This document shows positions 2 to 10,905 of a DNA stretch of 64,000 nucleotides, piece by piece (position 1 is the stretch's first letter; every line of letters starts with the position of its first letter). The stretch comes from Pseudomonas fluorescens Q2-87 (GTDB taxonomy: Bacteria; Pseudomonadota; Gammaproteobacteria; Pseudomonadales; Pseudomonadaceae), in assembly GCF_000281895.1 (NCBI RefSeq), contig NZ_CM001558.1, forward strand, positions 2,174,556 to 2,238,555. Reading direction: 5' to 3'. The position numbers and the translations under genes are program-made. Under the pieces are notes generated by a model, which worked only from the letters and a program-made list of their open reading frames with translations, had not been told where the DNA came from and ran no database searches.

Positions 2-859
2 AAGGGTCTTGAAAAGGCATACAATCACTTCATACAAAGATTTCCTGACGTACCTGGAGCATGTTCTTTCTCAGGAACTAAAAAATGGCTTAGCTCTTCA
101 GAGGAAGGCCCAGTTCTATATACTCCGGGTGTTTCCGTTTTAATTGAAGAATTCATCGAGGGGCCTGAAGGTTCTTTAGAGTGCTTAGTTATCGACGGTA
201 GCATTCACCCGATGCTAATCTTCGAAAAGATGATAACAAGCAATACTTCTAATACGGTATTAGAAAAGGTCATAGTCACACCGCCCCAAAGCTTTTCCAA
301 CGACCAAATTTCGATAATAGTATCAGCTATTAGCGATTCTATAAAAGCGCTGAAGATAAAGAACGGATTTTTACACGTTGAGTTCAAATTATCCCCAGGC
401 GGCCCCCAGGTAATTGAGGTAAATCCTAGGCTGGGTGGGTTCTTCGTGGACGAAGCTCTTAAGGATTTGTGCTCATGTGATGCGTATTCTTTAAACGTAA
501 ATTACCTAACAAATAAGCCAGTGACCATAGGGCATTATTTGGGGGATGACCTTCCGATCTTGCCTGAGGACGCCGTATACGCGATGCTCCTATTCTATCC
601 AAATCGCTCAGGCTACATCAAAGCTATAAAACTCCCAGAAATTGATTCTGCATGTGAGATTTTATCGCAGGTACTGCCTACTACTAACGGGCACAAAGAT
701 GGATTCTTCGATGTAGAGAACGAAGAAGCTTATATCGCTAAGTTGTGGGTGAGGGCAACGTCCATAGATGAGATACTTAACTTCCATAAAAAGTATGAGA
801 AAAATATTGAAATCGAAGTATCTGAATATAGCGAAGACAAATTAATGGGGGAGTGCTAG
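2..859 (+). CDS. ATP-grasp carboxylate-amine ligase, C-terminal part (5' end outside window)
   Basis: An open frame enters from the left edge without a stop, so only the last 285 residues are visible. They hold the core of an ATP-grasp fold: an E-E-F-I-E-G-P-E-G lid segment near residue 50 and the Mg-ATP site HVEFKLSPGGPQVIEVNPR with the E-V-N-P-R signature. ATP-grasp enzymes of this type activate a carboxylate as acyl phosphate and couple it to an amine, often joining two amino acids. The stop codon directly abuts the ATG of the asparagine-synthetase homologue, so the two are cotranscribed and probably translationally coupled. The DNA is AT-rich like the next seven genes. The substrate cannot be told; the role in a small-peptide pathway is inferred from the neighbours. 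Confidence 0.85.
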   Translation, partial: KGLEKAYNHFIQRFPDVPGACSFSGTKKWLSSSEEGPVLYTPGVSVLIEEFIEGPEGSLECLVIDGSIHPMLIFEKMITSNTSNTVLEKVIVTPPQSFSNDQISIIVSAISDSIKALKIKNGFLHVEFKLSPGGPQVIEVNPRLGGFFVDEALKDLCSCDAYSLNVNYLTNKPVTIGHYLGDDLPILPEDAVYAMLLFYPNRSGYIKAIKLPEIDSACEILSQVLPTTNGHKDGFFDVENEEAYIAKLWVRATSIDEILNFHKKYEKNIEIEVSEYSEDKLMGEC

Positions 860-2422
860 ATGTGTGGGATAGCTGCAATATTTGAAACGTCTACTAGTTC
901 TGATGGACGGCGCGACATTGAGGCTACTTTATTAGAAATGTTGGGGAGAATCTCTCATAGAGGCGCGGCTGAAAGATTTGGAGAGCGTTTTATATTTTCT
1001 AATGCTGCCATTGGTACCAATCGCTTGCCTATCGTGGAGAGAGAAGAAAATAATCAACCGTTCATAGATAAAATTTCTGGCCACGCAATTATATTTAATG
1101 GCGAGATTTATAATCTCGATGAATTGCGATTGATTTTATTATCGCAACGAGTGGAGTTTTTAGGCTGCTCAGATACTGAGCTGGTTCTTAGAGCCTATAT
1201 TCACTGGGGAAGGTCTTGTCTGAGCCGGTTCAATGGAATATTCGCCTTTATTATCTACTCACCGGAAGACAACACTGTTTTTGCTGCGAGGGATCGGTTG
1301 GGCGTAAAGCCTCTATACTGGGCTCAAGTGGGATCCGTCCTCTATTTCGCATCGGAACTGAAAGCACTGATTGGGCTGAGCAACAAGACACAAGAAATTC
1401 TCCCCGGATATTATTGGGAGGATGGTCAACAAAAAGCATATTATTTAATTAGCGAAAGCATAGAGCTGAAATTTGATTGCAAGTCCGCGGTAGCTAAATG
1501 CAACGAGTTACTGCACCTTTCGGTAAAACGCCAAGTTAATACGGATCTTCCGGTTGGAGTAGTTTTCTCTGGCGGGCTAGACAGCGCGATTATTCTTTAT
1601 CTTGCTAACCTATATCATAATAACGTCACCGCGTACACGGTAGGCGTGCCTGGCTCATCTGACGTAGTATTCGCTCAGAGACTATGCAAAGAACTCGGCA
1701 TAAAAATAGTTGTTTGTGATGTTGATCGCGCAGACCTCATGCAATCTATTAGAACACACATATACGTGTCTGAGCAGTTTGAGCCTGTGGATATAACTGA
1801 CGCATTAACTATAAATGCTGCTTTCTCCCGGATGAAAGAAGACGGCATACGTATAGCTTTATCTGGAGATGGAAGTGACGAGCTATTTGCTGGTTATGAC
1901 TTCTTTCAAGGGGTCAGTGACCGTCGTGCACTTCAATTACATAAGGTTAGGAACTTGTATCGAACTGATCTACAACGTGTGGATAGAATGAGCATGTTCA
2001 ATACGGTGGAATGCCGTGTGCCGTTTCTTGATAAAGATCTTTTCGATTTTATAATCTCGTTACCAATGGAATTTCATGTAAGAGATGATTTTACGAAAGC
2101 TTTGCTTAGAGACGCCTTCTCTCTCGAATTACCAGATTATATCACTCGGCGACCAAAAATGAGAATGTCAGAAGGGTCAGGTATAGGCGGACTCATATTT
2201 GACGTACTTCAATCCATGAATCAGAGCCTGGATTACAAGCCATTTCCGCTAGAAGATGATGCAGTTAATAATGCTGCTTTGATATTCCAAGAGTTCGGCT
2301 TTGGGCTTCCAAATAGTCGATATAAGATACAAGGTCTCGACTATCATAGCGGCGGATGGACGACCTCAAAAACTGCAGATATTGACAAAAATCTTATCAG
2401 TCACCCTGCCATCCAAGGATAA
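860..2422 (+). CDS. Glutamine-dependent asparagine synthetase homologue
   Basis: A 520-residue protein with the two domains of AsnB. The N-terminal Ntn glutaminase starts M-C-G-I, so the catalytic Cys2 is present, and FNGEIYN lies at 79-85. The C-terminal synthetase has the PP-loop SGGLDS at 237-242, and LSGDGSDELFAGY and ECRVPFLD further on. The family adenylates a carboxylate and attacks it with glutamine-derived ammonia. In antibiotic clusters the same fold can instead close lactam rings (beta-lactam synthetase), but those enzymes have lost Cys2, so amide formation is favoured here. It starts right after the ATP-grasp stop and ends four bases before the aminomutase ATG. Its place in a cluster suggests a specialised substrate rather than aspartate. 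Confidence 0.88.
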   Translation: MCGIAAIFETSTSSDGRRDIEATLLEMLGRISHRGAAERFGERFIFSNAAIGTNRLPIVEREENNQPFIDKISGHAIIFNGEIYNLDELRLILLSQRVEFLGCSDTELVLRAYIHWGRSCLSRFNGIFAFIIYSPEDNTVFAARDRLGVKPLYWAQVGSVLYFASELKALIGLSNKTQEILPGYYWEDGQQKAYYLISESIELKFDCKSAVAKCNELLHLSVKRQVNTDLPVGVVFSGGLDSAIILYLANLYHNNVTAYTVGVPGSSDVVFAQRLCKELGIKIVVCDVDRADLMQSIRTHIYVSEQFEPVDITDALTINAAFSRMKEDGIRIALSGDGSDELFAGYDFFQGVSDRRALQLHKVRNLYRTDLQRVDRMSMFNTVECRVPFLDKDLFDFIISLPMEFHVRDDFTKALLRDAFSLELPDYITRRPKMRMSEGSGIGGLIFDVLQSMNQSLDYKPFPLEDDAVNNAALIFQEFGFGLPNSRYKIQGLDYHSGGWTTSKTADIDKNLISHPAIQG

Positions 2423-2426
2423 TAAA

Positions 2427-3539
2427 ATGATTATTGCAAAGGACACTCTGAGTAAACAGGATTTACTTTCTTCCGACCAATGGGGTGACTACAAGTTCCA
2501 GATGAAGAATGCCATCCGCACCAAGTCTCAGCTGGAAACCTGGGTGAATCTCAGTGAAACGGAGTTGAGGGGGATTGAGCAAACAGAGAGCCAGTATAAG
2601 TGGATGATTACTCCCTATTATGCATCACTGATGGATGAGACCAATGAGAATTGTCCGATTAGGCTGCAAAGCATACCCCACCCAAAAGAAGTTGAAGAGA
2701 GCAATCAGCAGGAAGAAGTAGATCCGGTTGGTGATATGGCTTACATGAAAACCAGGCGCGTCGTACATAAATATCCAAACCGGGTCATATTCCTAGTTTC
2801 GGATACATGTCCAGTTTACTGTAGGCATTGTACTAGAAAATTTCATACAACTGATAAGTCAGGTACTTATTACAACAAAGAACTTCCCGCTTCATATGAT
2901 CAAGACATAGAGTACATCGCGAATAACAAAAATATCAGCGACGTATTACTCACCGGAGGCGACCCGCTAATTCTTTCAGATAAGCTTCTGCATAGTATTA
3001 TATCTAGGCTCAATGCAATCCCCCACGTCGATTTTGTACGAATTGGCTCACGATATCCGGTTTTTCTCCCGCAGCGGATAACAGATGATTTTTGTAAGAT
3101 GTTGTCTGAATTCAGATCGATCTGGTTTAGCACTCATTTCAATCATCCCGTAGAAGTGACTCCTGAGGCCTTAAGCGCGGTAGATAAACTCCTTTCCCAC
3201 GGGATACCGGTGCAAAACCAGACAGTGCTGTTGCGTGGAGTTAATGACGACGTTGAAACTCTTAGAACGCTGAACCGGATGTTAGTGAAAGGCAGGGTAA
3301 GACCTTATTATCTTTATCACGCGGACAATGTTCAAGGCGTGTCGCACTTTAGGACGTCGATTGAAAAAGGGCTTGAGATTATGGAACAGTTGCACGGTTA
3401 TGAAACTGGTTTCAGTGTCCCACAGTATGTTTACACCACCAAGCTTGGAAAGATTCCTCTGAATAACCAGTACTTTTATAAACTAGGCTCAAAGAAGTTT
3501 GTGCTCGGTTATGATCATAAAACGCTTGAGATCTCTTGA
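2427..3539 (+). CDS. KamA-like radical SAM amino acid 2,3-aminomutase
   Basis: A 370-residue protein that follows clostridial lysine 2,3-aminomutase along nearly its whole core. The cluster motif is C128-x3-C132-x2-C135, followed by TGGDP near 176-180, THFNHP near 236-241 and the PLP lysine, probably K342 in L-G-K-I-P. The family moves an alpha-amino group to the beta carbon using SAM, a 4Fe-4S cluster and PLP. Of the two aspartates that hold the lysine side chain in KamA, one is kept (D300, in H-A-D-N) and the other is replaced around 337-338. The C-terminal Cys-rich zinc tail is also missing. The substrate may therefore not be lysine. The ATG at 2427 has AAGGA seven bases upstream and is preferred over in-frame starts inside the preceding gene. 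Confidence 0.9.
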   Translation: MIIAKDTLSKQDLLSSDQWGDYKFQMKNAIRTKSQLETWVNLSETELRGIEQTESQYKWMITPYYASLMDETNENCPIRLQSIPHPKEVEESNQQEEVDPVGDMAYMKTRRVVHKYPNRVIFLVSDTCPVYCRHCTRKFHTTDKSGTYYNKELPASYDQDIEYIANNKNISDVLLTGGDPLILSDKLLHSIISRLNAIPHVDFVRIGSRYPVFLPQRITDDFCKMLSEFRSIWFSTHFNHPVEVTPEALSAVDKLLSHGIPVQNQTVLLRGVNDDVETLRTLNRMLVKGRVRPYYLYHADNVQGVSHFRTSIEKGLEIMEQLHGYETGFSVPQYVYTTKLGKIPLNNQYFYKLGSKKFVLGYDHKTLEIS

Positions 3540-3616
3540 GCTAAATTGACGCGTGAGTGGTTCACTACACCTCGTGGCTTTGAAGCTACCTAACTTACCA
3601 TTTCTTCGGTGTTGAT

Positions 3617-4456
3617 ATGATACTTACAAAATTAGACTACTCGATGTTAAAGCCAGAAGCTGTTGTAGCTCAATTTAAAGAGGACTTTAGTTATTCGTCC
3701 GACATAATAGTATTAGACCTCCCTAAAGCCAATGAACAGCGTCCAACGCCGAAACACTGGAAAGACGACTGTCATTCAAACTACGATGATTTGTTTCTTC
3801 AGCTTTCAAGGCATGTTGGTGATGTCTTCGGTTATAGCGACCTGCAGAACGGTAATCTTATTCAAGAAATATTCCCCATATTCAAAGATAGAAATAAGCA
3901 GTTGGGGAGTGGTTCTGTGCATTTAGAACTTCATACGGAAGACCCCGCTCTAGCCTATAGGGCAGATGTGCTAGGATTTTTATGCGTAAGAAACGACGAT
4001 AAAATCCCTAACTTGCTGTCTTGCCCAGACTTCTCAACTATTGATGCAACACTCAAACATAGGTTAACTGAGAATCGTTATACAATTCTTTCCGACCGAC
4101 CATCCACGATCGAATATAAGCCGAAAGCTCTAGAGACGGCGGTATTGCAAGAGTCTCCAGCCGAAGGTTACAGCTTCATTTATGATCCGGTCTACGTTGA
4201 CTACAGTAAAATGTCTCAGTGTGAAGAACTAGTGTTTAAGGATTTTATCGCGCTGGTTGAGTCAGCCACCTTTAACTTATCAATGAATGAAGCGCAGGTT
4301 TTATTTATCAACAACTACAAGTGCGCTCACGGCAGGCCGGAATTTACACCAAGGTACGATGGAACGGATCGATGGCTAAAAAGAGTACAGATTTCCAAGG
4401 ATATATCTAAGCACCTAGATCGGGAGTACAGTCTTGACATCATCACTGATATATAA
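3617..4456 (+). CDS. Fe(II)/2-oxoglutarate oxygenase, arginine-hydroxylase / clavaminate-synthase type
   Basis: A 279-residue oxygenase of the family that includes VioC, OrfP, AsnO and clavaminate synthase. The facial triad is visible as H106-x-E108 (L-H-T-E-D-P) and distal H238 (C-A-H-G-R-P). The typical tail P-R-Y-D-G-T-D-R-W-L-K-R supplies R252 for 2-oxoglutarate. Relatives hydroxylate free arginine, asparagine or related amino acids at the beta or gamma carbon. It is shorter than VioC (about 360 residues from memory), mainly at the N-terminus. A 77-bp gap separates it from the aminomutase, so a promoter there is possible, while its 3' end overlaps the exporter gene. The exact substrate is unknown; a basic amino acid is the leading guess. 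Confidence 0.85.
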   Translation: MILTKLDYSMLKPEAVVAQFKEDFSYSSDIIVLDLPKANEQRPTPKHWKDDCHSNYDDLFLQLSRHVGDVFGYSDLQNGNLIQEIFPIFKDRNKQLGSGSVHLELHTEDPALAYRADVLGFLCVRNDDKIPNLLSCPDFSTIDATLKHRLTENRYTILSDRPSTIEYKPKALETAVLQESPAEGYSFIYDPVYVDYSKMSQCEELVFKDFIALVESATFNLSMNEAQVLFINNYKCAHGRPEFTPRYDGTDRWLKRVQISKDISKHLDREYSLDIITDI

Positions 4457-5834
4457 TCGTGCCGTGAGGCTTTCCCGTAGATATACATCTGAGATGCGCG
4501 AGAGTTTCCGGCTCTCGCTTGCCTTCGTATTTGGCAATATCGCGCATGTGATTATTGCTACTACGGACGTAATAATGGCTGGATGGATTAGTACAGAGGC
4601 GTTAGCTGCGTCGACTTTGGCACAGGGCCTCTACTATCTCCTGTTCTTATTATTTTCCGGATTGCTAGTCTCTACAATCCCATTTATAACTGATGCGTTG
4701 GGCTCTAAGGAAAAAGAGGAACAATATATATCTGTATCAACCAGTTGCGTTCAGCTCATAGCAGCTGCGTTTTTAATATGCTTATCAATACTCTATTTTA
4801 CGAAAGAAATATTAGTTTTTTTCGGCCAGGATATTCTTTTGTCTCTCGAGGCCCAGAGATATATGAGTAGCCTGATGTGGAGCATTGGACCAGCGATTTT
4901 ATTTGTACACCTCAGAAATGTTTTATCTATAATGGGGTCCGCGCGATATGCAGTTATCGCAATTATTATAGCGTCGGTCTTTAACTTCGTTGCGCACCTG
5001 ATTCTAATATTTGGGTTTTTGTGGATACCCCCCTTGGGTTTGTTCGGTGCAGGTATAGCCACGACTCTAACAAACGTTCTGCTTTGTATGTTGCTGATCA
5101 CATTCGGTTTAATGAATCCGCAGTTTAGGGAGCGTCGGCACTGCATAAAATTAATGGTAGTGAGATGGCGGTTGATGTTGCCTATTTTAAAAAACGGTAT
5201 TCCGGTCTCTTTAACTCAAGCAAACGACACGCTGTTTTTCTTCATCCTTACAATTGTAGTGGGTAAATTTGGAGTCGTTGCATTGGCTGCTCATGGTATC
5301 GCAATGCAAGTTCTTCAAGTTGTATTTACAATACCTAATGGTATTTCGCAAGCATCTACCACAAGAATAAGCCTTTGCTCACCTTTAGGTTTGTATTCGC
5401 GGCGGACTAGTGACACAGGATGGAGTGCTCTATGGCTCAGCTGGATAGTGCTCACTGTGACATCTTCTATTCTGATTATTTTTTCTAATGATATCGTTCA
5501 GTTATTTGTTGCTCGCGATGACGGTGTAAATGACGAACTCATCATGCTATCTAGCCTCTTTGTCAGCATCTTAGGAATCTTCCATTTCTTTGATGGTAGT
5601 CAAATGGTCCTGCTCGGTATATTTAGGGGTCTGAAAAAGACTGTTATTCCGATGCTGCTCTCAATCATTTGTTTTTGGCTAGTGGGGCTGCCGCTAGCTC
5701 TATTACTTGCATTTTATACTGACCTAGGAGCAGCTGGTATATGGTGTGGCTTAGCGCTCGGACTTTTAGCGCTGTTCTCTCTACTTTTATTTAGATGGAT
5801 TCAATACGAGCCTTCGGCGCAGGTTGCGACATGA
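4434..5834 (+). CDS. MATE-family multidrug/metabolite exporter
   Basis: A 466-residue, very hydrophobic protein with about twelve membrane segments and the NorM-like N-terminal signature (A-T-T-D-V-I-M-A-G-W near residues 41-50). MATE proteins export organic cations or metabolites with Na+ or H+ antiport. A TTG start at 4434 is chosen because GGGAG lies seven bases upstream, giving a 23-bp overlap with the oxygenase gene. The stop overlaps the next ATG as ATGA, so both junctions point to one transcript. In this setting it is probably the export and self-resistance pump for the cluster product, which is inference. A second, GC-rich MATE gene at 38933 is not closely linked. Confidence 0.9.
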   Translation: MTSSLIYNRAVRLSRRYTSEMRESFRLSLAFVFGNIAHVIIATTDVIMAGWISTEALAASTLAQGLYYLLFLLFSGLLVSTIPFITDALGSKEKEEQYISVSTSCVQLIAAAFLICLSILYFTKEILVFFGQDILLSLEAQRYMSSLMWSIGPAILFVHLRNVLSIMGSARYAVIAIIIASVFNFVAHLILIFGFLWIPPLGLFGAGIATTLTNVLLCMLLITFGLMNPQFRERRHCIKLMVVRWRLMLPILKNGIPVSLTQANDTLFFFILTIVVGKFGVVALAAHGIAMQVLQVVFTIPNGISQASTTRISLCSPLGLYSRRTSDTGWSALWLSWIVLTVTSSILIIFSNDIVQLFVARDDGVNDELIMLSSLFVSILGIFHFFDGSQMVLLGIFRGLKKTVIPMLLSIICFWLVGLPLALLLAFYTDLGAAGIWCGLALGLLALFSLLLFRWIQYEPSAQVAT

Positions 5835-7060
5835 GAAACCTATACGGCATTCGAGGCATAAATTATATACTGAAACACAGTATATCCGTGATAGCTTGCT
5901 TATTGTTATATGTATCTCTTATTCTGGCTGTTCCGATCGATCTCTTGTCGATATATTCTGTTTCCTACTGCTGTTTGCTATTTTTTCTTCTATATTCCGT
6001 CAGCTCCTGGCCGATTATTCGTTCCCAATTCGATATCCTTAATATCGTCGTACCTTACTCTGCCGTGCGACGCTATAGTAGCTGCTTGTGTTGGTTTGTT
6101 CCTCTCTCTATTTTTACTTTAGTGGCGGGTCTATATTACAGAACCGAATTATTGGGATTTGGACTTTTAGGAGCGAGCCAGGTATTACTCATTTACCTCA
6201 TAATCCGGCTATATGCGACTGTAGTGATTGCCTGCAGGTCTGCTCTAAAGTGGCGGGAGCCGGTCGTCACATTGTGGCGCGATGTATTAGATGAACTTGG
6301 CGATATCGATGATAAAACACGTGAGTGTGTCCTTGATCTAATAGAATTGGAATGTTATGAGAGTAAATCATCATTACCTAGCCGCCTATCCAACCGCCTA
6401 TCCAGCGGCCTATCTAAGCATGTTTCGCCTGTACCTTATGCTACGAATATAAATATCAATGGGTTTAAGTCGTTGTTTGGACCAAGAAAGCCTCTTTGGT
6501 CTAAAGACGATTTCAGCTTTCTCTCAGGCGTTGATACTCTACTCGCCGAGATGACGCAGGAATTAATCCAGCTCTATGATAAATATAAGAACACGCAAGA
6601 AAAATATCCCTTTCATGGCGACCCTTTGTGGAAATCAATTCCACTTTATAAAGGTGGTCAAAAAGTTGTTGTATACGCTGACCTTGTACCAAATACTATT
6701 CGCTTTGTTGAGGATATTGTGCCAGGTGCGACTATCAGAGAGGTTGTGCTTTCAAGCCTAGAGCCTGGCGGTCATATCGAACCGCATCTAGATTATGTTT
6801 ATCCTATGCTGACGTTACATCTACCTATAGTTTGTTCTGACGATGGTTTGTCTGGGCTGAGAGTCGGGGAAGAGATCGTTAGTTGGAGAACTGGTGACAT
6901 AGTAATCATTGATACGACTTTTCAACATGAGTCTTGGAACTATAGTAAATGTACTCGTGTAAATCTAATGTTTGATTTCTGGCCCCAGGATCTGGGACCG
7001 TCGGCAAAAGCTTTTTTCACTGAAGTCTACTCGCGGCAGATGCTGCGACATCTAAAATAA
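5831..7060 (+). CDS. Membrane protein with aspartyl/asparaginyl beta-hydroxylase-like domain
   Basis: A 409-residue fusion. Residues 15-140 contain about four hydrophobic segments. The last 150 residues are an AspH/LpxO-like cupin oxygenase with GGHIEPHLDY (H319, D321), W-R-T-G-D, F-Q-H-E-S (H366) and the 2-oxoglutarate arginine R376 in C-T-R-V-N. The family hydroxylates Asp/Asn side chains or lipid acyl chains with Fe(II) and 2-oxoglutarate. The start is the ATG at 5831, overlapping the exporter stop as ATGA. A second hydroxylase next to the VioC-like enzyme suggests two oxidations of the product or its precursor. Its membrane location beside the exporter hints at late modification, which is inference. 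Confidence 0.8.
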   Translation: MRNLYGIRGINYILKHSISVIACLLLYVSLILAVPIDLLSIYSVSYCCLLFFLLYSVSSWPIIRSQFDILNIVVPYSAVRRYSSCLCWFVPLSIFTLVAGLYYRTELLGFGLLGASQVLLIYLIIRLYATVVIACRSALKWREPVVTLWRDVLDELGDIDDKTRECVLDLIELECYESKSSLPSRLSNRLSSGLSKHVSPVPYATNININGFKSLFGPRKPLWSKDDFSFLSGVDTLLAEMTQELIQLYDKYKNTQEKYPFHGDPLWKSIPLYKGGQKVVVYADLVPNTIRFVEDIVPGATIREVVLSSLEPGGHIEPHLDYVYPMLTLHLPIVCSDDGLSGLRVGEEIVSWRTGDIVIIDTTFQHESWNYSKCTRVNLMFDFWPQDLGPSAKAFFTEVYSRQMLRHLK

Positions 7061-7078
7061 TTACAGTTGGTTAAAATT

Positions 7079-8206
7079 ATGTTAAGCCCGAGTCAGAAGT
7101 TGTCGCAGGTCTTAAGTAAAAGTCCTCAAGTGGGCGACTTAATTCAGATGCACGATGGTGAGTTCAATCTTAAAGTTCCGCAGGAAATTTCTCGCGCAAC
7201 GATTAACGCCTTAACGAATGGACATACTGGCTATTGTGATCTTACCGGCATAGAGTCTTTAAAAAGCTCTTTGATCGAGAAGTGTTTTCACATGCATAGT
7301 AAGTTGTACGACCCAGCCGAGATTTTAGTCTCTAATGGCTCGAGTCAGGCTTTGTTTATGTTGATGAAATGCATATTAGCCAAAGGTGACGAGGTTCTTA
7401 TTCCGAACCCATGCTGGCCCGCTTATAGATCTTACATAGAGCTTAACGAGGGCATTGCCGTCGATTATGAAATGGGCACTAAGCGTATCGACATAGCTGA
7501 AATTCGTAAGTTGGTCACTAGCAAAACTAGGGCGTTGATCGTTAACTCGCCGCACAACCCCACTGGCTCGGTTCTAAGTCGACAAGAAATTCTAGAGTTG
7601 GTGCTCTTATCTCAAGAGTTTGGATTTTTACTAATTTCCGACGAAGCCTACGAAGGCATCGTTTTTGGTAGCGGTGAACATGTTAGTCCTCTGGATCTTA
7701 TGGTGGATACTAGCCTGCTGGTGGTTACACGTACGTTTTCAAAACTGTTCTCCATGTCTGGTTTTAGAATAGGCTATATGTTCGCGGATAGAAATATTAT
7801 CAATCGCTGCTCCACGCTTCAGGGCGTTATGACGGATAATGCTTGTACATTTGCTCAGCACGGTGCCCTGGCAGCAACAGCTTTGCCTAAAAATATTCTT
7901 AAAACGCGTGTTGATGAGTTGCAACGCCGAGCCTATTACTGCCATCAATTGTTAAGCACTACGTTTGATATTGTAATGCCGCAGGGTGGATTTTTCCTAT
8001 TTCCTAATATTTCCCGCGTATTGGGTGCTACTTGGGATTCGGACGCTCAATTTGTAGACGATCTCCTAAACGTAAAATCTGTTTCTACCACGCCGGGCTC
8101 TTCTTACGGTATGAAGGACCATATCCGAATATCAATTGCTTCCGTTAATGAAGTTGAAATTAAAGAGGCTTGTGGGAGAATTGTAGATTTTGTCCACCGT
8201 CGCTGA
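7079..8206 (+). CDS. PLP-dependent fold-type I aminotransferase-like enzyme
   Basis: A 375-residue protein with the class I/II aminotransferase landmarks: NSPHNPTG, S-D-E-A-Y with the pyridine-binding Asp, the Schiff-base lysine K222 in T-F-S-K-L-F, and R-I-G-Y. It could transaminate. Beside a VioC-like arginine hydroxylase it could also be a cyclase like VioD or OrfR, which use the same fold to close capreomycidine or streptolidine rings from hydroxyarginine. The sequence itself looks closer to ordinary aminotransferases. The ATG at 7079 is chosen; an in-frame TTG at 7067 would add four residues. It starts 18 bases after the hydroxylase gene. A hairpin at 8268-8285 follows it. Confidence 0.85.
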   Translation: MLSPSQKLSQVLSKSPQVGDLIQMHDGEFNLKVPQEISRATINALTNGHTGYCDLTGIESLKSSLIEKCFHMHSKLYDPAEILVSNGSSQALFMLMKCILAKGDEVLIPNPCWPAYRSYIELNEGIAVDYEMGTKRIDIAEIRKLVTSKTRALIVNSPHNPTGSVLSRQEILELVLLSQEFGFLLISDEAYEGIVFGSGEHVSPLDLMVDTSLLVVTRTFSKLFSMSGFRIGYMFADRNIINRCSTLQGVMTDNACTFAQHGALAATALPKNILKTRVDELQRRAYYCHQLLSTTFDIVMPQGGFFLFPNISRVLGATWDSDAQFVDDLLNVKSVSTTPGSSYGMKDHIRISIASVNEVEIKEACGRIVDFVHRR

Positions 8207-8431
8207 TTTTCATGCGGCAAGTGTTAATAGTGTGGAAAAATTTGTCAATTGGAGGTTGCGCTTTCTTGGTTAGCCCACGCTAACCTTGTTGAGGTTTGGT
8301 TAAGTTTATATGCCTAAGATGCCATTGCGTCATCAGATATTATATGTGATCACGCATTAATTTTAGGTCAAGACAGTTCCATATTTTATCATTTCCTATA
8401 TTCCATTAAAGAATCTTATTGGCTACTAATT
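8207..8431. other. Intergenic region with hairpin before the second radical SAM gene
   Basis: This 225-bp AT-rich gap is the longest inside the island. It contains a perfect 7-bp stem, GGTTAGC at 8268-8274 pairing with GCTAACC at 8279-8285, followed by a T-rich stretch. That may be a terminator or attenuator for the upstream operon. The rest is AT-rich and probably carries the promoter of the last gene; no clear -35/-10 pair could be fixed. Confidence 0.4.
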
Positions 8432-9781
8432 ATGCATTCTATAGAAAATCTAGCGGTGAGTGTTGATGACTTCACAAACAAATCAGAGGTTGAACGTTTC
8501 AAGGTTTATACCTTGAAACAAATTGACCACATTTCTCAGCTTGCTAAATTAGACAGCCAGACTATTTGGGAGATGAAGGTTGTGGCAAGCGTCTTGCCAT
8601 TTCGGGTCAATGAATATGTTATAAAGAATTTGATCGATTGGGACAATATTCCCAACGACCCTATATACCAACTTACCTTCCCCCAGAAGGATATGCTGGA
8701 TAAAGAGTCTTTTGATCTAGTGTCATCTTTACTTTTAAGGAGTTCCGAACGTTCAACGTGTGAGGTTGCGATAAAACAGGTTAGAGCTAGACTGAACCCT
8801 CATCCAGCGGGACAGCTTGAGCGTAACATCCCTTCACTGTCTGGCGTGACGGTAACTGGTGTCCAGCACAAATATCGTGAAACTGTGCTTTTTTTCCCAA
8901 GCGCTGGTCAGATTTGCCATAGCTACTGTACTTTTTGTTTCCGTTGGGCCCAGTTCACTGGAGACCAATCGCTCAAAATTGCTGCTAAGGAAAACACCCA
9001 GCTGTTGGATTACCTGCGGGCCAACCCTCAAGTGACTGATGTTTTAATCACTGGTGGAGATCCGCTGGTTATGAAGACAAGCAATCTACGTGCTTATCTA
9101 GAACCTCTTTTGACTCCTGAGTTCGAGCACATCCACACTATCCGAATTGGTACGAAAGCGCTTTCTTTCTGGCCTCAGCGGTTTGTGACTGATAGCGACG
9201 CAGGTGAACTTCTTGATCTATTTAGGAAGATTAGCATGCATGGGAAACACTTAGCTTTAATGGCTCATTATAATCATTGGGCGGAACTTGAGCCTGCAAT
9301 TGCTCGAGAGGCTATTCGTCGTGTTCGAAAAACAGGTGCTCAAATACGTAGTCAGGGCCCGTTGCTGGCTCATATTAATGACTCTGCTGATGTCTGGGCG
9401 CGACTCTGGCAGACGCAAGTTGAACTAGGTATTATTCCTTACTATATGTTTATCGAACGTGATACCGGGGCTCGCCGGTATTTTGAAGTGCCTCTTATAC
9501 GTTCGTGGGAAATTTACCGAGACGCTGTCAAACAAGTCTCAGGTATTGCTAGGACCGCCAGAGGACCTTCGATGAGCGCAGATCCGGGGAAAGTTGAGGT
9601 CTGCGGTGTAGCTGAAATTAGAGGAGAAAAGGTGTTTGTTTTACGCTTTATCCAAGCACGAAACCCGGATTGGGTGCAAAGACCATTCTTCGCACGATTT
9701 GATCCCGATGCTACGTGGTTCGATCAACTAAAACCGGCTTTCGGGGAGACTGCCTTCTTTTTCGAGGAGGAAGTTTCTTAA
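8432..9781 (+). CDS. KamA-family radical SAM protein (divergent aminomutase-like)
   Basis: A 449-residue protein with the radical SAM motif C162-x3-C166-x2-C169 (I-C-H-S-Y-C-T-F-C-F), TGGDP near 207-211 and a lysine in S-A-D-P-G-K-V-E-V (K387) where KamA carries its PLP lysine. It is clearly different from the aminomutase at 2427, with a longer N-terminus, A-H-Y-N-H-W in place of T-H-F-N-H-P, and another C-terminus. Proteins of this subgroup occur widely in bacteria; I know of no assigned reaction. It lies 225 bp downstream of the aminotransferase with probably its own promoter, but shares the island's AT-rich codon use. It may act on a second amino acid of the product. Confidence 0.85.
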   Translation: MHSIENLAVSVDDFTNKSEVERFKVYTLKQIDHISQLAKLDSQTIWEMKVVASVLPFRVNEYVIKNLIDWDNIPNDPIYQLTFPQKDMLDKESFDLVSSLLLRSSERSTCEVAIKQVRARLNPHPAGQLERNIPSLSGVTVTGVQHKYRETVLFFPSAGQICHSYCTFCFRWAQFTGDQSLKIAAKENTQLLDYLRANPQVTDVLITGGDPLVMKTSNLRAYLEPLLTPEFEHIHTIRIGTKALSFWPQRFVTDSDAGELLDLFRKISMHGKHLALMAHYNHWAELEPAIAREAIRRVRKTGAQIRSQGPLLAHINDSADVWARLWQTQVELGIIPYYMFIERDTGARRYFEVPLIRSWEIYRDAVKQVSGIARTARGPSMSADPGKVEVCGVAEIRGEKVFVLRFIQARNPDWVQRPFFARFDPDATWFDQLKPAFGETAFFFEEEVS

Positions 9782-10383
9782 CCCGTTTTTCCAGCCTTGC
9801 CGCTGATGATCAAACTACCAGGCTGAGAAAATGTGCTCTCACTCAATACCCTGTGCCCAGTTTTCATGGATCCGCGTTTCATAACCGAAGGAAGCGAGAT
9901 CAACTGTGCATTTAGTATGCTGCAGCCCCTAATAGACCTGTATCGAATCAAAAAAGACCTGTTTCAGGGCTTTAAGGGAACCGGGAGACTCGCAGAGGGG
10001 AATTGCCAAGATTCGCCCCTTTTTGGGCGAAGCGTTCGAATGGCTGCTTCTGGCCGATTCTGTTGAAAAAGTCGGTTCGCCCAAATGGCCTGAATATTGG
10101 ACGGTGAAAACGCCTTTTTTGCACGCTGCTACGTGAAATCTGAGCTTGGAAGCCTCTGCCCAAAGTTAAGATTTCAACCTCAGGCGCGTACTTTTCTGCC
10201 GTGGCAACCATGGCCGACTTTTTCAACAGAATCGGCCGAAAGCAGTCCATAGTGAACGCCCGCAGACGCCAGTTTATTAAGCCACGGCCTCAAAACTGGG
10301 GGCGAAAATCACGCGTAGATGCTGGGTAAGACTCAGCACATGCAGTGCAATTGGCCTGCGGAACTCCGCTCTACCAAACAAGC
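9782..10383. other. Non-coding junction between AT-rich island and core DNA
   Basis: About 600 bp with no believable gene on either strand. Base composition rises from island-like to core-like across it. The only clear structure is the inverted-repeat element at 10046-10246. Short open frames here have no good ribosome binding site and no recognisable protein. Confidence 0.5.
10046..10246. mobile_element. IS-end scar or MITE-like element with long inverted repeats
   Basis: A perfect 24-bp inverted repeat lies at 10052-10075 and 10212-10235 (core GATTCTGTTGAAAAAGTCGG). Pairing continues outward for a few bases with two mismatches, through CTGCTT at 10045-10050. The 136 bp between the arms have no transposase. 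Arms containing TGTTGAAAAAGTCGG look, from memory, like the ends of IS5/IS1182-type elements of pseudomonads. The element sits at the edge of the AT-rich island, which fits a leftover of the transfer event. Whether it is a MITE or an internally deleted IS cannot be settled here. Confidence 0.55.
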
Positions 10384-10416: not shown

Positions 10417-10689
10417 TCAGCCCTCAACCTGCGCCTGAAGCCGCCGACCAATCACCTCCAGCAAATCACATCCATCGCGCAACGGAATCACCAACAGCTG
10501 TGCGAAATCCGAAAGCACCACCGTGTCGCTGGCGGTCTCGGAGCGAAACGCGATGTTTTCCAATACCTGCGTCACCACGCGAATGCGGTAATCAGCGGTT
10601 GCGTGCAGGACGTCAAGCGGGGCTTGGGTATCGATGAGGAGGGAAGCGGGGGTGCAGTCGATGCCGGTGATGGGGACGTATCTTTCCAT
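10417..10689 (-). CDS. Small conserved Pseudomonas protein of unknown function
   Basis: A 90-residue protein beginning M-E-R-Y-V-P-I-T-G-I-D and ending in a hydrophobic/charged stretch with L-L-V-I-P-L-R-D-G-C-D-L-L. GGAG lies eight bases before the ATG and a strong terminator follows the stop, so it is a real monocistronic gene. I recall similar short proteins (DUF3077-type) in pseudomonads but cannot assign a role. No signal peptide or membrane segment is visible. Its leader contains elaborate hairpins (10748-10902), suggesting RNA-level control. Confidence 0.7.
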   Translation of the reverse strand: MERYVPITGIDCTPASLLIDTQAPLDVLHATADYRIRVVTQVLENIAFRSETASDTVVLSDFAQLLVIPLRDGCDLLEVIGRRLQAQVEG

Positions 10690-10905
10690 GTTTGAAACTC
10701 CAATCTAACGAGGACTCGAATAACCCAATCGTCGCCAAACAATCGGGTGGCAGTTGTACGCAGGTTGGCGAACCGGGATTGGAACCGGCAGACCCCAAGG
10801 TCTCCCACGCACAACTGCCATAACAGGCAGCCGTGCAAGTGTGCCAAGCCTCCGCAAAAAAAGCAGTACTTTTGCACCCAATTCCCAGGTCGCCAAACCT
10901 GGTCA
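10690..10905 (-). ncRNA. Candidate structured RNA leader upstream of the 90-residue protein gene
   Basis: Read on the minus strand, a 10-bp outer helix joins 10811-10820 with 10748-10757 (ACAACTGCCA/TGGCAGTTGT on the plus strand). It encloses a 5-bp hairpin at 10790-10803 and a CCGG/CCGG hairpin at 10773-10788, which competes with GGTT/AACC at 10763-10774. A separate 6-bp hairpin is at 10885-10902. This three-way-junction-like layout, in front of a small gene and without a convincing reading frame, looks like a cis-regulatory RNA. The function is unknown, and the pairing was worked out by eye only. Confidence 0.4.

Follow-up and report, generated by a model that had tools for sequence, protein, structure and literature searches.

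We analysed a stretch of 64,000 nucleotides from Pseudomonas fluorescens Q2-87 (NZ_CM001558.1, 2,174,556-2,238,555; a single-contig genome of 6.37 Mb, G000), hereafter the window, at whose left edge an earlier note, made from the letters alone, had proposed a biosynthetic gene cluster that does not depend on nonribosomal peptide synthetase (NRPS) enzymes. Eight plus-strand genes, g1-g8, span window positions -532 to 9781 as open reading frames, negative positions referring to L005, a stretch of the same genome that reaches left of the window. The left window edge cuts g1, and leftward extension, which the note had suggested, completed it: the whole gene encodes 463 amino acids (L005:18024-19415), with its ATG at L005:18024, equal to window -532. 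The genes, with strand in brackets, are as follows.

2..859 (+): g1, ATP-grasp amide ligase, 3' part in the window (Pfam ATP-grasp_4 and ATP-grasp_3 above cut-off)
860..2422 (+): g2, asparagine-synthetase-type amidotransferase, N-terminal MCGI intact (TIGR01536; alignment with human ASNS and E. coli AsnB)
2427..3539 (+): g3, predicted arginine 2,3-aminomutase (BlsG type), 370 amino acids (TIGR04468; BlsG signature residues)
3617..4456 (+): g4, short VioC/GntD-like Fe(II)/2-oxoglutarate oxygenase, 279 amino acids (GntD and VioC models; kept motifs)
4434..5834 (+): g5, MATE-family exporter (PF01554, 127 bits; TIGR00797, 184 bits against a cut-off of 147)
5795..7060 (+): g6, AspH/LpxO/OlsC-type 2-oxoglutarate oxygenase with hydrophobic N-terminal segments (PF05118, Asp_Arg_Hydrox, 100 bits)
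7067..8206 (+): g7, class I pyridoxal phosphate (PLP) enzyme of a cassette-specific lineage (PF00155, 213 bits; tree)
8432..9781 (+): g8, second KamA-type aminomutase, radical SAM (TIGR00238, 142 bits, below the cut-off of 199; alignment)

The frames fill positions 2-9781, and Pfam and NCBIfam matches bear out the family classes that the note had named for all eight genes; those of g4 and g8 are called from NCBIfam matches, because the Pfam scores of both fall under the cut-off (25.9 against 27 bits and 23.7 against 29.5 bits, respectively). Its description of the gene junctions as coupled holds for five of the seven, which are tight or overlapping (TAG and ATG adjoin at g1/g2, 4 nt separate g2 and g3, g4/g5 and g5/g6 overlap, and 6 nt separate g6 and g7), and fails for g3/g4 (77 nt) and g7/g8 (225 nt). 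An alternative start of g6 at 5831 would give an ATGA overlap with g5, and g7 has an alternative ATG start at 7079. Scans for promoters and terminators returned site counts no higher than in shuffled sequence. The AT-rich island that the note described is evident from a G+C content of 0.415-0.456 per operon gene, and the sharp difference from the flanks that it reported is seen in G+C at third codon positions (GC3), which is 0.38-0.47 in the operon against 0.725 and 0.757 for two genes of the right flank; the flanks are mostly 55-65% G+C, the left side having some stretches near 51%. The operon is also NRPS-free, as proposed: there is no condensation domain in or near the cluster, and the nearest of 29 genome-wide matches to PF00668 (NRPS condensation domain) lies about 339 kb away.

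By curated family match, g3 is an arginine rather than a lysine 2,3-aminomutase, predicted to convert L-arginine to beta-arginine; the viomycin/streptothricin-type aminomutase of the earlier note thus stands as an aminomutase, refined in its substrate. It scores 643.6 bits against TIGR04468 (arginine 2,3-aminomutase equivalog, cut-off 600), a cut-off also passed by its relatives in Azospirillum, Xenorhabdus and Kitasatospora (the last with blsE and blsF as neighbours). Four aligned arginine aminomutases, those of g3, L015, L016 and L017, have CTRKFHTTD and YHxDN in common, and YHxDN sits at the position of Asp293 of lysine 2,3-aminomutase. The CxxxCxxC cluster motif is present in g3, and its PLP lysine aligns with Lys337 of the same reference enzyme. 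Throughout, we assume residue roles for Asp293, Asp330 and Lys337 of lysine 2,3-aminomutase, taking Asp293 to be lysine-binding and Lys337 to be the PLP lysine.

The second aminomutase, g8, lies below every curated NCBIfam cut-off. It keeps CxxxCxxC and a PLP-type lysine and, aligned with lysine 2,3-aminomutase, has ERDTG where that enzyme has its lysine-binding Asp; Asp293 is Arg in all 12 chosen rows of the g8 family. In clostridial glutamate 2,3-aminomutase, a lysine presumably fills the role of the Asp293 position. The change from Asp to Arg suggests that the substrate of g8 is acidic, most likely glutamate; we do not file g8 as a glutamate 2,3-aminomutase, and propose only that it works like one. 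A radical-SAM enzyme of incednine biosynthesis, IdnL4, is a precedent by description, not by sequence, for the activity proposed for g8: in the part of the source covered, IdnL4 is proposed for beta-glutamate in a polyketide macrolactam context, idnL4 disruption confirmed a role in the route via beta-glutamate, and IdnL4 activity was not seen in vitro (PMC11284099). One g8-family row lies among type I polyketide synthase (PKS) genes with a proline-iminopeptidase-family gene, a locus that we take for a macrolactam cluster. Among 194 genomes of the order, 26 have a g8 relative, the own genome being one of them.

Relatives of g3, g7 and g4 recur together outside Pseudomonas, amid NRPS/PKS genes, both on an Azospirillum plasmid (60, 36 and 43% identity, respectively) and on a Xenorhabdus bovienii megaplasmid (61, 35 and 44%), and X. 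nematophila has these three annotated as XNC1_2153-2155, with the product given as 'Unknown' in the part of the source covered (PMC5313471). As a cassette, the three enzymes presumably yield a single building block derived from arginine. For g4, the guanitoxin enzyme GntD provides the best NCBIfam model (160 bits against 345), and the VioC model gives 125 bits against 418.6, both scores being below the equivalog cut-offs; HTED, the distal His of the facial triad and YDGTDRWLKR are invariant in all nine aligned rows. GntC is the second-best model for g7 (226 bits against an equivalog cut-off of 415). The Azospirillum and Xenorhabdus partners score 249-289 bits against the GntC/GntD models, again below cut-offs, with GntC the best model for the Azospirillum PLP enzyme. 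In an 11-row tree the PLP enzymes of Azospirillum, Xenorhabdus and g7 group together (support 84/98; 83% of bootstrap trees), the cassette lineages being set against four other aminotransferases, with a long-branched OrfR-like row. According to the part of the source covered, the arginine cyclases GntC, VioD and OrfR conserve a Glu and two Ser (PMC10367076); g7 and both of its cassette relatives are without that Glu and Ser near the N-terminus and have an HDGEF-like sequence instead. We therefore did not file g7 as a cyclase, although GntC is its second-best model, and the 'PLP cyclase' of viomycin/streptothricin type that the note had named is not upheld. Against aspartate aminotransferase chains g7 gives E 4e-52, compared with E 3.4e-17 against GntC.

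Among solved structures, the ligase g1 comes closest to the L-amino acid ligase BL00235 (E 1e-16). With a threshold of E <=1e-40, 14 of 268 genus genomes, own included, have a g1-type protein; four of these hold the cluster itself and ten a relative at 30-33% identity. All four of the ten relative loci that were read carry the following four-gene operon, in which the ATP-grasp protein is 32-33% identical to g1 and the oxygenase was Pfam-tested as PF10014 in two of the four loci.

L060, L061, L062, L063, L023:10820-15280: KamA-type gene, ATP-grasp gene, 2-oxoglutarate-Fe oxygenase gene (PF10014) and MFS gene, in that order, with a distinct aminomutase signature

The same four-gene order is found in a Burkholderia cenocepacia record, and the ATP-grasp protein of a Burkholderia record is 31% identical to g1. 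The KamA proteins of this operon differ in signature and fall far short of the arginine cut-off, so their substrate is probably not that of g3. A frame of 1519 amino acids, an NRPS by eye, lies about 2 kb upstream of the operon in L060. A BlsI-type ligase identity for g1 was considered and rejected (E 0.029).

The amidotransferase g2 passes TIGR01536 (glutamine-hydrolysing asparagine synthetase) with 345 bits against a cut-off of 267 and, aligned with human ASNS and E. coli AsnB, begins MCGI, the glutaminase cysteine being kept; the score does not imply a particular substrate. Lactam synthetases (beta-lactam synthetase, CarA, TblS) are not known to keep this N-terminal cysteine, so that amide formation by g2 is likelier than lactam closure. 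The match to AsnB (E 1.7e-49) is also better than those to CarA (E 1.6e-13) and beta-lactam synthetase (E 2.3e-12), and a lactam synthetase reading of g2 was rejected on these two grounds; the cysteine likewise argues against the tabtoxin-type lactam synthetase analogy drawn in the note. After the cluster orthologues, g2 relatives drop to 53% identity (P0126) and then to 47-48%. The 53% AsnB relative and a VioC-type protein at 49% (P0251) are each recorded with 20,952 bases as the longest contig, and a diverged version of the operon is hinted at by this pair; Burkholderia gladioli holds a 50% relative of g4 (P0254). A 43% g2 relative in Tistrella adjoins genes for a LysE-type exporter and a methyltransferase. 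An NRPS-containing stretch of a Streptomyces cellulosae plasmid (L019:9687-43659) holds relatives of g2 (40%), g6 (33%, partial) and g8 (46%).

In the oxygenase g6, hydrophobic 19-mers start at residues 22-57, 95-97 and 118-133. The Azospirillum record alone, among 24 matching plasmid records, reaches at least 80% coverage of g6; it has two g6-like proteins, one of them in the fetched stretch at 32% identity.

The eight genes are conserved as a unit. We fetched seven related loci, five found via g4 (L010-L014, of which L014 is the Pseudomonas sp. REP124 locus, with G167 identical to it over 4110 bases) and two via g3 (L046 and L047). All seven carry all eight genes in identical order, mostly at different sites, so one of the two outcomes that the note had named as refuting, neighbourhoods in which the genes are not conserved together, was looked for and not seen. 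Per-gene identity to these relatives is 75-99%, except for g7 of L010, which aligns in two pieces. Distribution is sparse: g3 was found in 4 of 298 genus genomes sampled, own included, and wider sampling returned the own genome alone for g3 (1 of 398 phylum genomes, E 1e-110), g2 (1 of 398, E 1e-115) and g4 (1 of 350 class genomes, E 1e-30). Omega, as a Nei-Gojobori estimate, is 0.022-0.199 in all 47 scored comparisons outside the nearest relative, indicating purifying selection; for the nearest relative, L046, it is 0.036-0.604 at a synonymous divergence (dS) of 0.03-0.09. These figures leave out g7 of L010, whose frame is broken; for g1 of L047, which is interrupted by a stop, the estimate comes from 381 of 463 codons.

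These observations are consistent with a mobile, NRPS-independent operon for the synthesis and export of a small peptide or amide that contains beta-arginine, a reading to which we assign a probability of about 0.55; the beta-amino-acid-containing modified dipeptide or amide that the earlier note had thought likely is thereby supported. The sequence itself shows the gene content, conservation as a unit, selection, foreign composition, the lack of a condensation domain nearby and the family of g3; from it we infer the product, all substrates except arginine for g3, the order of ligation and amidation, export and bioactivity. In the proposed route, g3 would supply beta-arginine, and g8, acting on an acidic substrate, would supply another beta-amino acid, which to judge by the active-site residue is most likely beta-glutamate. 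The oxygenase g4, probably by C-hydroxylation, and the dedicated g7 would modify the arginine-derived unit, as in the Xenorhabdus/Azospirillum cassette, and g6 may add a further oxygen at the membrane. By the reaction classes that family and active site suggest, g1 would join the units by ATP-grasp chemistry and g2 would amidate a carboxylate with ammonia from glutamine; g5, as a member of its family, would export the product.

Several points weigh against this proposal. Here g1 is separated from the aminomutase g3 by g2, and the match of g1 to the blasticidin-type ligase beside blsG is as poor as E 0.029. The score of g8 against TIGR04368 (glutamate 2,3-aminomutase) is 98.6 bits against a cut-off of 650, the suggested acidic substrate rests mainly on one charge change, and among all stop-to-stop frames of five loci with g8 relatives no neighbour is common to more than two (one frame pair, 28% identical, is shared by two of the five), so that genome context outside the cluster gives no pointer to glutamate. 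A broken gene is present in two of the seven relatives, and the stop in g1 of L047 and the break in g7 of L010 mean that the trait is not intact everywhere.

The nearest competing explanation, which we regard as unlikely, has the operon build a cyclic guanidine: g6 or g4 would hydroxylate arginine, g7 would close an enduracididine- or capreomycidine-like ring and g4 would hydroxylate it again, comparable with GntB/C/D or VioC/VioD, and g3 would make beta-arginine or a cyclic analogue. The ranking of the GntD and GntC models for g4 and g7 and the scores of their cassette partners speak for it, as does g6 being a hydroxylase with membrane segments, GntB being described as a transmembrane enzyme in the part of the source covered (PMC10367076). 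Yet every GntC/GntD-model score is below its equivalog cut-off, the cyclase Glu and two Ser are absent from g7 and the two cassette relatives, and g7 is far closer to aspartate aminotransferases than to GntC; the cyclase function of g7 was accordingly rejected as our principal interpretation and retained as part of this rival alone. Less probable again is a pathway for an osmolyte or a stored dipeptide, comparable with N-acetylglutaminylglutamine amide, in which aminomutases would make the solutes. The making of such solutes involves both ATP-grasp ligation and amidation by a relative of AsnB, the breadth of g8 relatives in the order without common neighbours in five loci would suit it, and the own genome has another AsnB-like frame; however, the operon has an exporter and three dedicated enzymes of the arginine cassette, whose relatives stand in NRPS/PKS clusters, and its rare, patchy distribution (the four genus genomes with g3) also counts against a solute.

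In our view it is very improbable that g2 forms a beta-lactam ring, as happens in the clavulanate, carbapenem and tabtoxin pathways. Such a closure could plausibly start from beta-amino acids, the operon encodes a distant relative of clavaminate synthase, and g2 itself has a remote kinship with CarA and beta-lactam synthetase, but it is much closer to AsnB and keeps the N-terminal cysteine. We give hardly any credence to the view that unrelated genes came together by chance in a composite island, or that the operon is a decayed relic. The mobile elements to its left and right and the two relatives with a broken gene are what such a history might leave, and it is already contradicted by conservation as a unit, with the same eight genes and order at mostly different sites in all seven loci and low omega in 47 of 47 comparisons.

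If a mobile operon for a beta-arginine peptide or amide is indeed what is present here, then a compact, transferable, NRPS-free operon can build beta-amino-acid peptides, which are familiar chiefly from NRPS, PKS or nucleoside pathways; g4, g7 and g8 would be three uncharacterised enzymes, and Pseudomonas, Xenorhabdus and Azospirillum would have a testable shared building block. The four-gene Pseudomonas operon and the Pbo region of P. syringae might then work on a similar principle. A broader and more speculative claim, which we consider possible though doubtful, is that the operon is the elaborate representative of an unrecognised NRPS-free class in which radical-SAM aminomutases feed beta-amino acids to a dedicated family of ATP-grasp ligases, here with beta-arginine and beta-glutamate, from two different aminomutases, yielding a new beta,beta-dipeptide amide antibiotic, mobile among pseudomonads.

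The note knew of no cluster with this full set, and searches of the open-access literature, with most subscription journals, MIBiG and antiSMASH outside their coverage, likewise gave no account of it; the related accounts that they listed are those of the Pbo and Xenorhabdus clusters alone. In the part of the Pbo table covered (Pseudomonas syringae pv. phaseolicola), a KamA-type pboF, an ATP-grasp ligase, a 2-oxoglutarate-Fe oxygenase and an exporter occur together, kinds of protein that our operon also encodes, though with g2 between g1 and g3, and the gene order pboF-G-H-I equals that of the four-gene Pseudomonas operon, compared by table and not by sequence; unlike our operon, Pbo includes genes for NRPS and PKS enzymes, for an Ido-type oxygenase and for MFS exporters, and that part of the table lists no AsnB, MATE, VioC/GntD-like, PLP or AspH-like gene (PMC8473136). 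A second source, covered in part, annotates pboF (PSPPH_4554) as a putative arginine aminomutase (PMC3639832). In X. nematophila XNC1_2153-2162 an arginine aminomutase, a PLP enzyme and a clavaminate-synthase-like oxygenase stand in a row, as far as the covered part of the account goes, but beside PKS/NRPS genes (PMC5313471), and the X. bovienii megaplasmid cluster shows the same likeness and the same difference. The blasticidin S relative in Kitasatospora (L017) encodes a BlsG-type aminomutase 56% identical to g3, with an ATP-dependent carboxylate-amine ligase two genes downstream, whereas it has nucleoside genes and no AsnB, VioC-type protein or second aminomutase is listed in its 29-kb stretch. 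L025, called streptothricin-type because its PLP enzyme is nearly identical to the OrfR of 4m2j/4m2m, similarly combines an aminomutase, a VioC-type oxygenase and a PLP enzyme for an arginine-derived residue, but its aminomutase is annotated for lysine, its cyclase has the signature, and NRPS and glycosyltransferase genes are present. Guanitoxin GntC/GntD resemble g7 and g4 by model rank and differ in the sub-threshold scores and in the cyclase signature that g7 lacks.

The operon lies among the following features, which concern its boundaries and mobility.

L005:14791-14983 = window -3765 to -3573: left copy of a 193-bp element, inverted relative to the right copy (193/193 bases identical)
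L005:15798-16609 (-): IS3-type transposase pieces (HTH_Tnp_1, HTH_21, partial rve), between left element and operon
L005:16900-17667 = window -1656 to -889: gene with a PRTase-CE domain (PF24390), lying shortly before g1
9782..9906: right end of the conserved island (blastn ends, junction alignment)
10051..10243 (-): right copy of the 193-bp element, with near-palindromic ends, identical to the left copy
L047:15084-15157; L010:16219-16292 (-): group II intron 3' end at the island edge in two relatives (Rfam)

The AT-rich island is foreign in composition, and from composition and distribution we infer that it is mobile. The inverted element pair, which resembles a miniature inverted-repeat transposable element, brackets 13.6 kb including the island; its terminal 24-mer occurs genome-wide (6.37 Mb, <=1 mismatch) only at these two copies, and a search of the genome with the right flank matched, besides itself, the left element copy alone (202 bases, 99%). 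On the right, homology ends at window 9906 in five of the seven relatives (L046, L047, L010, L011 and L012), which continue beyond the matching position into group II intron-like sequence. Rfam RF00029 (group II intron) is above threshold in two of the five scanned, L047 and L010, starting at the next base, and the same stretch is present below threshold in L046, L011 and L012. Outside the island, the Q2-87 genome has in common with L046 only the left-hand stretch of transposase and PRTase-CE, and with L013 only what remains there of PRTase-CE; in the downstream comparison of the five relatives, a long flank is common to L010 and L047 alone. A search of 38 relatives, own genome included, found no contiguous empty site; flank pieces were matched in 8 and 6 of the 38, at 68-79% identity apart from the own copies. 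The PRTase-CE gene has 52.6% G+C and is 94.5% identical in L046; a defence role for it was rejected, there being no PADLOC match. Beyond the right element copy, window 10428-10821 has three long matches elsewhere in the chromosome, at 75-77% identity.

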